27,366 nucleotides of DNA, taken from the IMG/VR virus record IMGVR_UViG_3300012964_000050, positions 1 to 27,366 of that record, one strand, 5' to 3'. Under the pieces are notes generated by a model. The model searched no databases, had not been told where the DNA came from, and was given only the letters and a program-made list of their open reading frames with translations. The stretch comes from a virus. Below are positions 1-15,748 of the stretch, piece after piece. Position numbers and translations under genes: made by a program. The number at the start of each line of letters is the position of its first letter. Position 1 is the stretch's first letter.

Positions 1-44
1 GACCGCGTTTCGAAATCGATATGCAAAGTCGGCCGGTCGGTCAT
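1..44 (-). CDS. DNA polymerase, family A-like (N-terminal fragment)
   Basis: Only the first 14 codons are in the window. The ATG at 44-42 overlaps the stop of the upstream 64-aa gene as ATGA, the junction style used throughout this operon. The translated start is MTDRPTLHIDFETR. A short leader followed by HIDFET is the usual opening of phage family A DNA polymerases, where the Asp and Glu of DxE form the Exo I motif of the 3'-5' proofreading domain. Neighbours upstream (ssDNA-binding protein, RecB-like nuclease, SNF2 helicase) are the usual companions of such a polymerase. The identification rests on a very short peptide plus context; another DnaQ-like exonuclease would start the same way. 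Confidence 0.55.
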   Translation of the reverse strand, partial: MTDRPTLHIDFETR

Positions 45-235
45 ACAAGACCTTTCTCAACAGCAAGCCAGTTAGGCATCGACACTTCGACAATCGAGTC
101 GCCCCTCTCGGCATATTCGATCTGGCTCTTGGGCAACCAGATATACGTTGAACCATCATCGGAGACGGCAATCGCTTTTTCCGTCTCCGCATGAATGTTC
201 AGTGTCAAATCGATAAGATCAGAGCGCTGGTTCAT
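41..235 (-). CDS. Small conserved phage protein, 64 aa, unknown function
   Basis: Not assigned to a named family. The protein is small and acidic, with the pattern LTLNIHAETEKAIAVSDDG then WLPKSQIEY, which reads as a small beta-rich fold. It has no membrane segment, signal peptide or cysteine. It overlaps the DUF2815 gene upstream and the putative polymerase downstream by 4 bases each (ATGA at both ends), so it is very likely translated by coupling and belongs to the replication operon. From position alone it may accompany the polymerase or the ssDNA-binding protein; that is inference. Confidence 0.7.
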   Translation of the reverse strand: MNQRSDLIDLTLNIHAETEKAIAVSDDGSTYIWLPKSQIEYAERGDSIVEVSMPNWLAVEKGLV

Positions 236-2718: not shown

Positions 2719-4038
2719 TCAAGGGCCTTCTCGCGGTCCTTCGATCTGGGCGATGGCCGCGGTCTTGCGCGCCAGCGTCGCGCTGACGCGCTCGTCGATC
2801 GAATTGGCCAGCGTCACCCACTGGGCATGTACCTTGCGGGTCTGGCCTTTGCGGTGCACGCGCTTGATGGCTTGGTAGTTGTCCATCGGGGCCCAGGACG
2901 ATTCGAACATGATCACGCGCGCCGCGGCGGTGAGCGTGATGGCCGTTCCCGAGGCGACAATGTTTCCCAAATAAACCTTGACCTGCGGATCGTGCTGGAA
3001 CCGCTCGACCGCGTTGTCGTCCTCGCGCCCATAAACCGCAACCACCCCCGCAGCGGCCAGGGTCTGTTTGATAATTTGGAGTGCTCGTACGTGAATCCCG
3101 AACACAACCACTTTGTCCAGGCCATCGGCGATTTCGGAAACGAGCAGGTTTGCGAAAGCCGGAGCTTTTGCCTCGCCAACGAGGCGTCGTAGCGTCGCGA
3201 TGTGCTGGCTATCGAGGAACGATAGACCCCCGGTCTCCACGGCTTCGAGGATGGCTCTTTCCATGTTCGGATGCGCCTGGAGAAGGGTTCGAATCTCTTC
3301 CGTGTCACCGTCCATCTCCGTGGTTGTCATGAAGATCGGGGGGCGATCCGCATCGGTTTCGCGCTCAGTGCGCCGAAGGCTGCATGAGCGGATCACCTGG
3401 CGCAGCTCATCCAACATCTCCGGCCGGGGTTTGTGCGAAGCGCTGTAGGTCCGCTGGATCCTGCGATAGTAGCGCGTGCAGAAGGCGTCCTTGTTGAGCC
3501 GTGTGGCGCCGCAGAAGCGCAACATCGACCAGCAGTCGGCTGCGTCGTTCGGGTTGGCTGTACCTGTCAGCCACCAGCCGTTCACCGCCCACTCGGCCAA
3601 TCCGAAGCGCCCGTCGCATTCCGGCCCGATCAAGGCGCGCGTTCTCAACGCGCCCAGGTTCTTCAGGCGGTGGCCTTCGTCGAAGATCAGACAATCGATT
3701 ACGTCGCGCTTGAGCCGAGACGCCCAATTGGTCGCCATCTCGTAGGATAAAAGCAGGACGTCCGACTTGCCGCGAAGCCAGAACTCGCGGTCCTGCTCGG
3801 TCTGGCCCTTGATGAAACGCAGCCGCCGTTGGCCGAATTTGGCATACTCGTTGCGCCAGACGCCGGCGCGATGGGCTTCGGCGGGCGCCACGACGACGAT
3901 CCGCTCGGCGCCGATCGTGTCCAGCCCGCGGATCGCTTGGGCCGTCTTACCGACGCCAGGTTCGTCCAGCAAAGCAGCTCGCCGCTTGGACGCCAAAAAT
4001 GCGGCGCCTGTTTTCTGGAAAGGCAACAATTCAGGCAC
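2719..4038 (-). CDS. SNF2-family DNA helicase/translocase
   Basis: A 439-aa single-polypeptide SNF2/SF2 ATPase. The motifs run in order: Walker A DEPGVGKT (residues 25-32), DEGH box (120-123), motif III LTGTANPN (157-164), motif V VASGTAITLT (361-370), and motif VI IKRVHRKGQT (391-400) with its arginine finger. The N-terminal ELLPFQKTGAAFL is the Q-like SNF2 entry motif. There are no accessory domains, so this is a minimal phage-type version. It likely moves on double-stranded DNA to remodel replication or recombination intermediates with the RecB-like nuclease and RusA. The start is GTG at 4038, overlapping the stop of the winged-helix gene by 8 bases. Confidence 0.9.
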   Translation of the reverse strand: MPELLPFQKTGAAFLASKRRAALLDEPGVGKTAQAIRGLDTIGAERIVVVAPAEAHRAGVWRNEYAKFGQRRLRFIKGQTEQDREFWLRGKSDVLLLSYEMATNWASRLKRDVIDCLIFDEGHRLKNLGALRTRALIGPECDGRFGLAEWAVNGWWLTGTANPNDAADCWSMLRFCGATRLNKDAFCTRYYRRIQRTYSASHKPRPEMLDELRQVIRSCSLRRTERETDADRPPIFMTTTEMDGDTEEIRTLLQAHPNMERAILEAVETGGLSFLDSQHIATLRRLVGEAKAPAFANLLVSEIADGLDKVVVFGIHVRALQIIKQTLAAAGVVAVYGREDDNAVERFQHDPQVKVYLGNIVASGTAITLTAAARVIMFESSWAPMDNYQAIKRVHRKGQTRKVHAQWVTLANSIDERVSATLARKTAAIAQIEGPREGP

Positions 4039-4438
4039 GGCGGTTTATTTCCGGCTTGCTGTCTTTCTCCAAAGCTTGCCGAATCAGTTCGCGTCCGGCT
4101 AGCGAAAGTGCAAAACCCCCGCCGCGGCCTTTACGGCTATCAATAATGTTTTTGCCGATTTTGCGCCTAATGTTGTATATCCAAACATTTATCGTTTTCG
4201 TTTGGCGCATATCTGGATCAATGCGTGATCCAATATAGTGTGCTACCGGAATTTCAGCATCCAAGTCTATTGCCGGCAGCCATCTTTTGGCGTTGCACAG
4301 CGCGGCTAACAGATGACTCTCGGACATGGACACAGGCAATGCACGATAAATCCGATCTGGCAGTGAGATACGCAAGTCAAGCTGTTCTTCCAGCTCGGTC
4401 ACGCGCAGCCTCAGTTCTTCGCAGCTGGCGCAGGTCAT
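4031..4438 (-). CDS. Winged-helix DNA-binding protein (OmpR/PhoB C-terminal-like)
   Basis: A 135-aa protein. The ATG at 4438 follows a GAGG ribosome-binding site and matches the coupled start used in the duplicate junction at 5436, so it is preferred over the ATG at 4453. Residues 1-22 (MTCASCEELRLRVTELEEQL) hold a CxxC and a short heptad-like helix. The C-terminal half resembles the response-regulator winged helix: TINVWIYNIRRKIG as recognition helix, then IIDSRKGRGGGFALS as the wing, corresponding to the RGxGY hairpin of that family. There is no receiver domain. It may be a phage transcription regulator or a DNA-binding accessory. Codon use is AT-richer than in the helicase. Its first codons lie in the 68-bp direct repeat. 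Confidence 0.6.
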   Translation of the reverse strand: MTCASCEELRLRVTELEEQLDLRISLPDRIYRALPVSMSESHLLAALCNAKRWLPAIDLDAEIPVAHYIGSRIDPDMRQTKTINVWIYNIRRKIGKNIIDSRKGRGGGFALSLAGRELIRQALEKDSKPEINRRA

Positions 4439-4479
4439 GATCCTCGCGTCCATTCGCTATCTATTTTCGCCCAAGGAGA
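4412..4479 (-). repeat. 68-bp direct repeat, copy proximal to the helicase
   Basis: This segment matches 5410-5477 at 61 of 68 positions in my alignment. It includes the sequence around the MTCxxCEEL start codon plus a non-coding remnant that would read SPWAKIDSEWTRGS then stop. That peptide is nearly identical to the real C-terminus of the 65-aa gene at 5433-5630. So the repeat copies the end of one gene and the beginning of the next, and it flanks the DpdA-like cassette. Confidence 0.9.
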
Positions 4480-4510
4480 TATAAAAACTTTGGTCTTTGA
4501 ATAAAAACAC

Positions 4511-5272
4511 TTATCGCGGTGGCGCTACAAATCGTGATTTGGGTTGTTTGCGATTAATCGCTAATACCATTTTCGGCGGATCGTTCTGAGGTCTATGATG
4601 ATTTTGGGCGACGTTGCTACTATCACAAGAGAAAAAACCCCAGTTATACTTTTGGTCTAAAAACCGCATCATTCTCAATCCGTGGATGGGGGGCGGATAA
4701 TCTCCATATACCGCTTTTATCTCGCTAAAGACTTCGTTCATGCGATCAAACCATTGTGGTGTTCCAATTACACGGAATTCACCGGCAGACCCTATGCAAA
4801 CGCGATTCCATCCCTGCTCCAGCAAGTGGAGAAGACGGTTAACAGGGTGGTGTAGATGCCAAACAGGTGCTGATCGGGATTTGGGGAAGGGCCATTGAAG
4901 CAGTAACGCATCCTGCATCTGAGAAGGCGCATCGATCTTATCGGGCACAATCGCCCAACTGGTAGGGCGGCATAACTTCCCCTCCAGCCACTGGTAATAT
5001 GGCTGCCAGTCTCGATCCGTATGAAGCAACGCATCTATCTCATCTCGATTAACCGGATTTTTCTCAATTGCTCGTTTATCAATCAGTGCGAGAACCGCTC
5101 GCCAATAGGTGTAGCTTCCGCAGTCGAAAGCGATACGTTCGGCTATTGGCTCAATAAAACGATATTGCGAGCGTGCGGTGGTGGCATACGATATCATGAA
5201 CGACGTATGATCGCCCAAACTTTTCAATACCGATCCAGGCGTAATAGGTAAAACATGGTAATGTTCGGACAT
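4511..5272 (-). CDS. dpdA: DpdA-like 7-deazaguanine DNA transglycosylase
   Basis: A 253-aa protein with the motif series I associate with phage DpdA, a relative of tRNA-guanine transglycosylase that exchanges guanine in DNA for a 7-deazaguanine such as preQ0. Motifs in order: FDCGSYTYW (residues 49-57, with Asp50), WAIVPDKID (106-114), PVWHLHHPVNRL (136-147), RVCIGSAGEF (157-166) with GTPQWFDRM, IHGLRM (196-201) and SCDSSNVAQN (215-224, with Asp217). Asp50 and Asp217 are the likely catalytic pair by analogy with TGT enzymes. Modified DNA commonly resists host restriction. No queuosine/preQ0 synthesis gene is in the window, so the base would come from the host or from genes elsewhere. The start overlaps the upstream 54-aa gene as TAATG. 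Base composition is AT-richer than in the flanking operon. Confidence 0.75.
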   Translation of the reverse strand: MSEHYHVLPITPGSVLKSLGDHTSFMISYATTARSQYRFIEPIAERIAFDCGSYTYWRAVLALIDKRAIEKNPVNRDEIDALLHTDRDWQPYYQWLEGKLCRPTSWAIVPDKIDAPSQMQDALLLQWPFPKSRSAPVWHLHHPVNRLLHLLEQGWNRVCIGSAGEFRVIGTPQWFDRMNEVFSEIKAVYGDYPPPIHGLRMMRFLDQKYNWGFFSCDSSNVAQNHHRPQNDPPKMVLAINRKQPKSRFVAPPR

Positions 5273-5436
5273 TATTCGCTCAACCTATTGTTCAACGCGT
5301 CCCGCACGTCATTCGCCAGCGCCAGCAAATGCCCATAAGCGCGGAATATTACATTAAGGTTTCCTCGTGCATTTTTGATGGCCTCCACACGGCGTAAAAA
5401 CTCACAAAGCAGCTCTTCGCAGCGGATGCAGGTCAT
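5272..5436 (-). CDS. Small CxxC protein upstream of dpdA, 54 aa
   Basis: The ATG at 5436 overlaps the stop of the 65-aa gene as ATGA, and the stop overlaps the dpdA start as TAATG, so the gene is firmly embedded by translational coupling. The protein begins MTCIRCEELL, almost the same as the start of the winged-helix protein, because both starts lie in copies of the 68-bp repeat. The rest is helical (RRVEAIKNARGN, then ALANDVRDALNN) and is not related to the winged helix. Function is unknown; it could be a partner of the transglycosylase or simply a hybrid ORF made by the duplication. Confidence 0.6.
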   Translation of the reverse strand: MTCIRCEELLCEFLRRVEAIKNARGNLNVIFRAYGHLLALANDVRDALNNRLSE

Positions 5437-5477
5437 GATCCGCGCGTCCATTCGCCATCTGTTTTCGCCCAAGGAGA
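5410..5477 (-). repeat. 68-bp direct repeat, copy distal to the helicase
   Basis: This is the partner of 4412-4479. In this copy both sides are in use: it codes for the last 15 residues of the 65-aa gene and the first 9 residues of the 54-aa gene, joined by ATGA. That makes this junction, or its ancestor, the likely source of the copy at 4412. The two copies enclose the 54-aa gene and dpdA. Confidence 0.9.
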
Positions 5478-5630
5478 CACAACGATTTCGGTAGGCGTTA
5501 TCAGTCGCGCCCAAGAGGGCGGCAGGAAAGCGAGGGCCTTCTTGAACTCGCGAAACGCTTCGACGTAGACCATGCCTGCGCCGTCACGGATCTCCACGAT
5601 GTACAGCGCGCCGAGTGGCGGGTGCCTCAT
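5433..5630 (-). CDS. Small phage protein, 65 aa, unknown function
   Basis: The protein starts MRHPPLGALYIVEIRDGAG and continues through VYVEAFREFKKALAFLPP. This looks like a compact alpha/beta domain; the pattern of a strand, then a helix carrying FREFKKA, suggests a small accessory protein. No family was recognised. The start overlaps the rusA-like stop as ATGA, and the stop overlaps the next start as ATGA. Its last 15 codons are duplicated as a non-coding remnant around 4440-4485. Confidence 0.65.
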   Translation of the reverse strand: MRHPPLGALYIVEIRDGAGMVYVEAFREFKKALAFLPPSWARLITPTEIVVSPWAKTDGEWTRGS

Positions 5631-6046
5631 TCCCGGATCTCCCTGAATTGGATTAACAGACTGCTTTCTTCGGCGTAGCGCCGTGAGAACGAGCCGACCA
5701 CCACCTGTTTGTCGTCATGCCAGGCCACGCCATTGAGCGCGTCCATCACCAGCTTGACCACGTTGTCCATATCCGGCTTGGTTGTCGGCAGGATGTGCTG
5801 GCGCAGCATCAGCGCCAGGCGCTTCTTCGACGTCGCTGCTGGCGGGCGGCAGCGCACTTCGACATGCAGCCACACGGGGCCTTCGATCACCGGCGCTTCG
5901 CCCATGGTTTCGACGCAGGTTATCTTGATCAAGTTTTCATAAGAAACGGTCGGTTCGTCGGTGTAGGCGCGGCCCGTTGCGCGAACGAACCGCGGCCGGC
6001 CTTTGCCTCTGACGTCACCGGGGATGACGAAGCCGACGACGTTCAT
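5627..6046 (-). CDS. rusA: RusA-family Holliday junction resolvase
   Basis: A 139-aa protein, a usual length for RusA, a dimeric metal-dependent endonuclease that cuts four-way junctions. The family signature KPDMDNVVKLVMDALNG (residues 90-106) supplies Asp92, Asp94 and Asp102, and VAWHDDKQVV (107-116) supplies the next acidic residues, D111 and D112. The N-terminal VIPGDVRGKGRPRF is the typical first strand and basic loop. In this operon it would resolve replication or recombination intermediates before packaging. It overlaps both neighbours by ATGA (6043-6046 and 5627-5630). Confidence 0.92.
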   Translation of the reverse strand: MNVVGFVIPGDVRGKGRPRFVRATGRAYTDEPTVSYENLIKITCVETMGEAPVIEGPVWLHVEVRCRPPAATSKKRLALMLRQHILPTTKPDMDNVVKLVMDALNGVAWHDDKQVVVGSFSRRYAEESSLLIQFREIRE

Positions 6047-6289: not shown

Positions 6290-6778
6290 TTAGGCGGGGT
6301 CCGAAGCTGCCCCAGCCGCGCCGAGCTGGCGTGCGCGCTCAGCGATGAAACCGATGATGGCCAGCGTCTCGTCGGTGGGGTAGCCGGGCCGGTCGCCGCC
6401 AGCTTTGGCGTGCTTGGTGTATTCCTCGGCCGTGAACCATCGGCAACCAGCAGCGATCTTGTAGCCGCCAATCACGAGTTCGGCACCGTAGAAGGTGTAA
6501 CCGTCCTGGCGATTGACCGAGGCGAAAATGCGAGCGATTTTTTCGCCCCCCAGGTTCGCGCCCCGCAGGTTCGCGCCCCGCAGGTTCGCGCCCCACAGGT
6601 TCGCGCCCCCCAGGTTCGCGCCCCGCAGGTTCGCGCTCGTCAGGTCCGCGCTCGTCAGGTCCGCGCCTTCCAGATTCGCGCCCGTCAGGTCCGCGCCCCG
6701 CAGGTTCGCGCCCGTCAGGTCCGCGCCCCGCAGGTTCGCATAAGGACCGATCACTTTCACAAAGTCGTTAATGTGCAT
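6290..6778 (-). CDS. Pentapeptide-repeat protein
   Basis: A 162-aa protein; the ATG at 6778 has a GGAGG ribosome-binding site 5 bases upstream and is preferred over the ATG at 6811. Residues 14-78 are about 13 tandem A(N/D)LxG pentapeptides, which form a right-handed square beta-helix. The C-terminal part (about 80-162) has no repeats and contains [28 protein letters not shown], a module seen after pentapeptide stretches in other phage proteins. Some pentapeptide proteins mimic DNA and bind gyrase; others are structural. Here the role is unknown. The DNA shows a matching 15-bp periodicity (6550-6740), likely prone to slippage. Confidence 0.85.
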
Positions 6779-6826
6779 CGCTGCCTCCAAAGCGTTTAGC
6801 AACCTCAACACGTCGTCGCCACATCG

Positions 6827-13660: not shown

Positions 13661-15748
13661 TTGGCCCGCAAGAAGCTCACTCGCGACACGGAACTCGGCA
13701 CGCGCGAAAAGATCAAGGAGCGCTTGCTGGAACTCTTCAAGGATGTGGAGAAGGGATTTACCGATCAACGTGATCGGGCGGACCAGATTCTGTGCAATTG
13801 GGATATGTACAACTGCGTCCTGGGCGAGAAGCAATTCTACAACGGCAATTCCAAGATATACGTGCCCTTCGTTCGCGATGCGATAGACGCGCGGGTTACT
13901 AGATTCTCCAATCAGCTTTTTCCGCAATCCGGCCGCTACGTCGAAGTCACGACGATGGAGGCCGACCAGCCGCAGGCGATGCAAGCCCTGCTGGAGCACT
14001 ACGTTCGGCGCTGTAAGATACGCACCGACGTCGTGCCGCCGCTGCTGCGGAACGGCGACATGGAGGGCCAGTACACGATTTACGTCACATGGGCCGAGAC
14101 GGAGCGCCAGGTCACTTACAAGAAGTGGACCCAGCCCGAAACGGACGGGATGGAGAACGAGGCCGCCGAGCCGGTGGAGGACGTCAAGGACGAAACGATC
14201 GTCGATGCGCGGCCGGATGTGGAATTGATCTCGGACACCGACTTCTCGGTCATCCCCGCCACCGCCTACAGCATCCCGCAAGCCTTGGCGGTCGGGGGCG
14301 CCGCCACGATCATCCGGCGCTGGACCAAGGCCCGGATCAAGAAGGCGATCAAGGACGGGGATATCATCGAGGAAGAAGGCGAAGTCCTGCTGAAGCGCAT
14401 GGACGAAGCCCGCACCGAAGCCAAGACGGATATCGCCAAGGAGCAGGCCGACAACGCCGGTATCAAGGCTGGCGGCAAGTATGCGCTGATCTACGAGACC
14501 TGGACCATGATCAAGGTCGAGGACGATATGCGTATGTGTCGGATATTCTATGGCGGCGAAAAGCAGATCCTGGGCTGCAAACAGAATCCCTTCTGGCACG
14601 GTATGTGCCCGGTCCTGTCGATCCCGGCGCCCAAGATCAGCGGTGTGTTCAAGGGGACCGCCAAGGTGCAGGCTGTCGAAGACCTTCAGATTTTCGCCAA
14701 CGACACGATCAACGAGGGCGCGGATACCGCGCACTTCTCGGCTATGCCGATCGTGATGACTGATCCGGTGCACAACCCTCGCATCGAGACCATGGTGCTG
14801 GGCCTGGGCGCGGTATGGCCGACATCGCCGAAGGATACGCAGATCGTCGAGTTTCCCGATCTATGGCGTTCGGCGCTGGAGCGCGCCGCGGCGATCCAGA
14901 ACCAGATTTTCCAATCCCTCAGTGTCAACCCGTCGATGATCCCGCAAGGCACCGGCGGGCCGGGCAAGAAGCGAAACCAGGCCGAGATTGCTAACGAACA
15001 GGCGGTGGACCTGTTGACCACCGCCGACGCCGTAACCCTCGTCGAAGAGGGTATCCTGACCCCGATGATCCAGATGTTCGCCTGGCTGGACCAGCAATAC
15101 CGGGACGCCGATCTGACCATTCGGACCTATGGCCCGATGGGCGAGGAAGCCAATATGCAGGTGATCCCGCCGATCCAGATGGACCACCGCTATGAGTATC
15201 GTTGGTATGGCGTCGAAGTCACCCGCACGACCCAGGCGATCCAGCAGCAGATCGCCATGCTCAACGTCGCCAAGTCGATCCCGCCGCAGATGTACCCGGA
15301 ATACGATCTCGACGTGGCGCCGTTCATGGTCCAGATGTTCGAGAACGCCATGGGGCCGCGTCTCGCGGCGCTGACGTTCAAGAAGAAAAAGAAAATCTCC
15401 GTCGATCCGATCATCGAGAACGAGATGATGGAAGCGGGATATGCCGTGCCGGTGCATCCGGTCGACGACGACCTGGAACACATGAGCGCACACATGTTCG
15501 GGGTCCAGGCCGCCGGCGGGGAAGACCCCCTTGGGGTGTGGCGCGATCACATGATGAAGCACCAGGCCCAGATGCAGCAGAAAGCGCTGATGGAACAACA
15601 GCAGGCGCAAGGCAATCCGGGTTCACAAGGTGGTCCCAAACCGGGCGGGCAACCGGGAACCCAACGTGGGGTCAAGGGGCCGCCCGGCGCTATTCACGCC
15701 GACCAGATGGCGGCGGCTGGCAGCCCAGGTATGCCGCGCAAGACTTGA
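13661..15748 (+). CDS. Portal protein
   Basis: A 695-aa portal, forming the dodecameric ring through which DNA enters the head. The start is TTG at 13661, preceded by AGGGGA at a normal distance, giving MARKKLTRDTELGTREKIKERLLELF. Typical podovirus-portal segments are NGNSKIYVPFVRDAIDARVTR (residues 61-81, containing the entry strand-helix), FSNQLFP, a long helical stem region (about 400-480), and a helical barrel-like C-terminal part. The tail (about 620-695) is low-complexity, Gln-rich then Gly/Pro-rich (GGPKPGGQPG). It follows terL by 10 bases and precedes the scaffold gene. Confidence 0.88.
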   Translation: MARKKLTRDTELGTREKIKERLLELFKDVEKGFTDQRDRADQILCNWDMYNCVLGEKQFYNGNSKIYVPFVRDAIDARVTRFSNQLFPQSGRYVEVTTMEADQPQAMQALLEHYVRRCKIRTDVVPPLLRNGDMEGQYTIYVTWAETERQVTYKKWTQPETDGMENEAAEPVEDVKDETIVDARPDVELISDTDFSVIPATAYSIPQALAVGGAATIIRRWTKARIKKAIKDGDIIEEEGEVLLKRMDEARTEAKTDIAKEQADNAGIKAGGKYALIYETWTMIKVEDDMRMCRIFYGGEKQILGCKQNPFWHGMCPVLSIPAPKISGVFKGTAKVQAVEDLQIFANDTINEGADTAHFSAMPIVMTDPVHNPRIETMVLGLGAVWPTSPKDTQIVEFPDLWRSALERAAAIQNQIFQSLSVNPSMIPQGTGGPGKKRNQAEIANEQAVDLLTTADAVTLVEEGILTPMIQMFAWLDQQYRDADLTIRTYGPMGEEANMQVIPPIQMDHRYEYRWYGVEVTRTTQAIQQQIAMLNVAKSIPPQMYPEYDLDVAPFMVQMFENAMGPRLAALTFKKKKKISVDPIIENEMMEAGYAVPVHPVDDDLEHMSAHMFGVQAAGGEDPLGVWRDHMMKHQAQMQQKALMEQQQAQGNPGSQGGPKPGGQPGTQRGVKGPPGAIHADQMAAAGSPGMPRKT

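Follow-up and report, generated by a model that had tools for sequence, protein, structure and literature searches.

The closest described counterparts of the locus reported here are two phage insertions. In the Cluster I mycobacteriophage Island3, gene 68 and the gene upstream of it have in common a 60-bp (18-codon) gene 3' end, which is present as a single copy in Brujita, and in LRRHood, 29-bp repeats whose sequence is single-copy in Cali enclose genes 43-46 (1.35 kb); for both insertions, recombination between short stretches of common sequence has been proposed (PMC3029335). Phage genomes seldom show such traces of how a gene was acquired. In this study we analysed a window of 27,366 nt (positions 1 to 27,366 of the IMG/VR virus record IMGVR_UViG_3300012964_000050), in which a dpdA-like gene and a small open reading frame (ORF) lie between two copies of a gene-gene junction. 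Similar to Island3, the cargo sits next to an upstream gene whose 3' end is duplicated, and similar to LRRHood, where the foreign cargo is a captured repressor, it lies between direct repeats of a gene 3' end: the repeat is found on both sides of the cargo, and an intact upstream gene has its 3' end in the first copy in the direction of transcription (copy A). The window differs from Island3, which has an orphan cargo of unknown function, a copy that ends the cargo gene itself and an empty relative (Brujita), and from LRRHood, which has a repeat of only 29 bp, single copy in relatives, and other cargo. As in phage morons, an extra gene of deviating composition stands between operon genes, but no promoter or terminator of its own was found for the cargo in the window, and the cargo is coupled to the operon by overlapping codons; our search of the cargo returned no terminator, and two promoter-like matches on the other strand that equal chance. 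Because neither element was found, the cassette is not a classical moron, and because no recombinase is encoded between the repeats, it is not an integrase element. The reading that fits the locus best is a scar left by insertion, in which an overlapping junction was duplicated; it is a new instance of a kind already known for other phage cargo.

The operon runs on the minus strand in the order rusA, 65-aa gene, 54-aa ORF, dpdA, winged-helix gene and SNF2 helicase, with the following features:

5627 to 6046, minus strand: RusA-type Holliday junction resolvase gene, upstream in the operon (Pfam RusA, E 2e-28; phrog_140).
5433 to 5630, minus strand: intact 65-aa gene (an ORF), whose 3' end is the left part of copy A.
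5410 to 5477, minus strand: repeat copy A, the live junction, made up of the end of the 65-aa gene, the ATGA overlap and the first 9 codons of the 54-aa ORF (61/68 to copy B).
5272 to 5436, minus strand: 54-aa ORF beginning MTCIRCEEL, whose stop overlaps the dpdA start (TAATG).
4511 to 5272, minus strand: dpdA-like gene of 253 aa, short (singleton) type, GC 0.48 (phrog_887; 33-45% identical to short DpdAs of other phages).
4412 to 4479, minus strand: repeat copy B, the dead tail of a homologue of the 65-aa gene, lacking a start codon, plus the winged-helix start (61/68 to copy A).
4031 to 4438, minus strand: winged-helix gene of the family that starts MTCxxCEEL (weak Trans_reg_C match; alternative start possible at 4453).
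2719 to 4038, minus strand: SNF2-type helicase gene, downstream, GC 0.62, at the right edge of the AT-rich block in the GC profile (Pfam SNF2-rel_dom, E 5e-18).

The original prediction described a 68-bp direct repeat agreeing at about 61 bases, and this is confirmed. Positions 4412-4479 and 5410-5477, both on the minus strand, are identical at 61/68 bases with no indel, self-BLAST of the window returns the repeat at E = 2e-19, and elsewhere in the window the 68-mer aligns without gaps at no more than 37/68 positions. Apart from a pentapeptide-repeat protein gene (6290-6811, minus strand), which has a 15-bp tandem repeat, nothing else in the window is directly repeated at E < 1e-8. The finder stretches the match to 83 nt at 84% identity, and on the side of the next gene it ends abruptly after codon 9. 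An assembly artefact as the source of the repeat is ruled out, the longest exact run common to both copies being 16 bp.

Within the repeat the 65-aa gene ends, its stop overlaps the next start as ATGA, and the next gene runs for nine codons; the frames read as had been predicted, live at 5410 and a dead remnant at 4412. In copy A the 65-aa gene ends in SPWAKTDGEWTRGS and its TGA stop overlaps the ATG of MTCIRCEEL, and in copy B a dead tail, SPWAKIDSEWTRGS and a stop, with no start codon in its own frame, precedes the real winged-helix start MTCASCEEL. In the gene-end part of the copies nearly all synonymous positions agree (CGC/CGA is the only difference of synonymous choice), which therefore indicates descent at the DNA level and not a protein motif alone. 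Since the copies differ at 10% of positions, the event cannot be recent unless a diverged relative supplied the second copy. MTCxxCEEL is the conserved start of the winged-helix family, which is present in phages of Alphaproteobacteria; because this start is a trait of that family, it is the 54-aa ORF that borrows the first nine codons of the winged-helix gene, and beyond these the two are unrelated. Ribosome-binding strength is weak at both junctions of the window (-3.5 and -5.9).

We consider it probable, at roughly 0.7, that a foreign AT-rich dpdA segment recombined into a tight phage operon and left a duplicated gene-gene junction. In the ancestral state the stop of the 65-aa gene and the winged-helix start would have shared an ATGA. 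Crossovers would then have left a working junction before the cargo, so that the first cargo ORF would start on the old start codon, together with a second copy of the gene end before the winged-helix gene. This second gene end, which codes for nothing of its own, was probably kept for the start region of the next gene that lies inside it. An in-silico crossover between the copies excises 998 bp and restores both genes and their overlap, and joins at each of four tested points in the repeat yield a 65-aa gene and a 135-aa winged-helix gene with an ATGA overlap, as expected of the ancestral junction. Because the crossover restores both genes and the overlap, insertion is the best reading, and we infer the event, its direction and its route through recombination. 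Recombination from copy to copy would remove the cargo cleanly, and the cassette is therefore predicted to be both gainable and losable. A duplicated overlapping junction shows how a cargo gene can be taken into a packed operon with both neighbours left whole, and from it follows the testable prediction of a deletion that recreates the empty site.

The composition of the locus partly follows the repeats. Positions 4480-5409 have a GC content of 0.47, the window as a whole 0.61, and no other 930-bp stretch is as low; dpdA lies 13.8 points below the rest of the window (-0.138), whereas 85 other dpdA genes differ from their own loci by -0.011 +/- 0.033. The claim that the enclosed genes are AT-richer than the operon thus stands, but it had missed that the winged-helix gene, although outside the repeats, is also AT-rich (GC 0.51; GC3 0.53 against 0.73-0.84 in most large genes of the window), and this speaks against a simple insertion. 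Either a larger block arrived with its own junction or there were two events. The foreign block therefore covers about 4031-5436, and the GC profile drops at 5433-5477 and climbs back at about 4038; the limits of the foreign DNA are not exactly those set by the repeats, the block spanning the live junction to the helicase start.

This composition is what would be expected if 4031-5436 (54-aa ORF, dpdA, tail and winged-helix gene) was imported as one piece from an AT-richer phage that already had the duplicated junction, by recombination at the conserved junction and the helicase start. Besides the two edges in the GC profile and the low GC3 of the winged-helix gene, this history is consistent with the composition of eight winged-helix relatives elsewhere, each of which is within 0.05 GC of its own phage, and with the base differences between the copies, 5/7 of which leave copy B AT-richer. 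However, AT-ward mutation in a dead tail would look alike, and no donor was found. We regard import of the whole block as possible but doubtful, and since it shifts the duplication to the donor without explaining it, it is compatible with the insertion of dpdA at a duplicated junction.

Direct repeats around dpdA were found in three loci (L015, L028 and L037) in a scan of 85 other dpdA loci, and 21 further loci added one more, L196, as bracketed. With margins of 700 bases, dpdA is bracketed in 4/90 other loci, where control positions within these loci predict 0.38; these are small numbers from a test devised after the window had been seen, with the window left out and the phage K396, which satisfies a looser cut-off, not counted. 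The recurring association of flanking repeats with dpdA is suggestive, and if the enrichment holds, it would help to explain the patchy spread of DNA-modification genes among related phages. A search for paralogues around dpdA by translated self-comparison was not informative, the rate in its controls being 9%.

The build of the window recurs around dpdA in at least two other unrelated phages. In L037 (5699-7390), queD-dpdA-queE lies between two copies of the end of a DNA-polymerase gene (63 bp at 90%). The repeat there comprises the last 18 codons of the polymerase gene, the spacer and the next start, and the second copy is a dead remnant, a 28-aa ORF starting on the queE stop (ATGA), which contains the AAGGGAG ribosome-binding site of the next gene. 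In the cultured Vibrio phage K396 (L229:2800-3906), dpdA lies inside the head-tail block and is closed by a 31-bp copy of the end of the upstream neck gene, consisting of ISKK, the stop and the spacer, and in relatives at 30% identity the neck gene stands directly before the tail genes. Searches for an empty site with the downstream gene of L037, the flanking gene of L028 and the DNA of K396 found none. With L037 and K396 as independent support and the insertions in PMC3029335 as precedents, the original idea that dpdA cargo was inserted at a duplicated junction is retained as the best reading, and its further suggestion of a possible hot spot is unproven, no other cargo having been seen between these repeats. 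It is a good deal less probable that deazaguanine cassettes in general enter unrelated phages by one recurring route, in which insertion at a tight junction duplicates the upstream gene end and the tail provides the next gene with a start region or a translated relay, so that the cassette can be cleanly removed and is often gained and lost; we would put little weight on so broad a rule.

Two of the four counted loci hold whole-gene relatives and not gene ends, and L015 holds a duplicated dpdA plus its neighbour. In L028 (4931-8050) a 60-aa gene is found on both sides of a dpdA-yhhQ block (172 bp at 77%), and a 71-aa gene is also present twice (93%). In L196 dpdA lies between related whole genes of 119 and 123 aa, and in L015 (4553-6852) there are two diverged dpdA genes, and after each of them comes a small HTH gene, the two being closely related (176 bp at 83%). 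The whole-gene flanks of these three loci suggest recombination through anchor genes as a second route. They also favour a history for the window in which two full copies of the 65-aa gene, imported with the dpdA segment or made by duplication, originally flanked dpdA, which had entered by homologous recombination in this anchor gene, and the second copy decayed to the tail needed by the winged-helix gene. Two annotated Ead/Ea22-like genes likewise flank dpdA in Klebsiella phage RothD (L226:2465-4216), and upstream of the 68 bp the copy B remnant in the window reads on with conservative protein changes, as from a diverged homologue. However, the similarity in both the window and L037 stops sharply about 60-85 bp from the junction, and the polymerase gene of L037 is about 2 kb long, which makes a full second copy unlikely there. 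We think such decay unlikely for the window, and prefer the insertion that duplicated only the junction.

Gene 3' ends are common attachment sites, and the polarity of one live and one dead copy fits the repeats being attachment sites of the sort left by integrases that restore the end of their target gene. A site-specific element of this type is nevertheless very improbable, as the cassette contains no recombinase (its genes are the 54-aa ORF and dpdA alone), and the repeats have no common sequence and are of unequal length, 63 bp in L037, 31 bp in K396 and 68 bp in the window. Least credible of all is a control element or protein motif held by selection with no history of insertion, for although the MTCxxCEEL start is conserved in its family, the identity covers a gene tail whose second copy has no start codon, synonymous sites included, there is no promoter or terminator excess, and the window self-comparison did not find the same element before unrelated genes of the phage.

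The cargo protein of 253 aa belongs to phrog_887, queuine tRNA-ribosyltransferase (E 9.7e-26), and gave no match in a Pfam search. It matches 96 phage records, all at <60% identity and at 28-38% among the matches listed, and D50 and D217, both kept in it, are invariant in an alignment of 28 members. The predicted model is of good confidence (pLDDT 88); its best PDB matches are Cap10, a deazaguanine-linked enzyme (TM 0.46), and TIM barrels (tryptophan synthase alpha, TM about 0.43), and no classical TGT chain occurs among the 50 PDB matches listed. The protein is in the same family as the short singleton DpdA of MED16, SW9, SEN1, SfI and HK106, at about 30-45% identity, and unlike several relatives its gene has no YhhQ or Que gene adjoining. 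The DNA of Pantoea phage MED16, which carries a short DpdA, contains dADG (PMC8306585). Judging by its family, the window DpdA probably modifies DNA by insertion of a 7-deazaguanine (dPreQ0/dADG), and the same family function points to the putative role of the cassette in evading defence.

A comparison with relatives in which the 65-aa gene is joined directly to the winged-helix gene had been proposed, and we searched IMG/VR, phage records and 385 alphaproteobacterial genomes without finding a single-copy junction. Close relatives of the locus were found neither in these genomes nor in IMG/VR or 50,697 phage records; in IMG/VR, searches with the 65-aa gene, dpdA, the helicase and the junction DNA gave no close relatives, and the winged-helix start motif gave distant family members only. 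In the genome collection the motif gave 0 family members among 29 matches; in the 385 alphaproteobacterial genomes the 65-aa protein gave three weak matches that we discounted (E about 0.005-0.009), and DpdA gave none in a search run without a positive control. The 65-aa gene has zero matches in Pfam, PHROG, phage records or IMG/VR. The window phage seems to belong to a poorly sampled lineage.

Distant relatives retain the frame of the operon with different contents. In Rhizobium phage N65, which lacks dpdA, rusA is accompanied by two other small genes and SNF2, and then comes a DUF2800 gene; L087 combines rusA and a 133-aa gene with dpdA and a YhhQ-type gene; and in L080, dpdA and a YhhQ-type gene stand between SNF2 and DUF2800. 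These arrangements indicate that the position of dpdA varies within such replication modules. Elsewhere in the window, a 695-aa protein encoded after the terminase (13661-15748, plus strand), probably the portal by its position, has 0 matches in the 50,697 phage records, and a 64-aa protein (41-235, minus strand) resembles by eye a 65-aa gene of the dpdA locus L028 (6526-6723).
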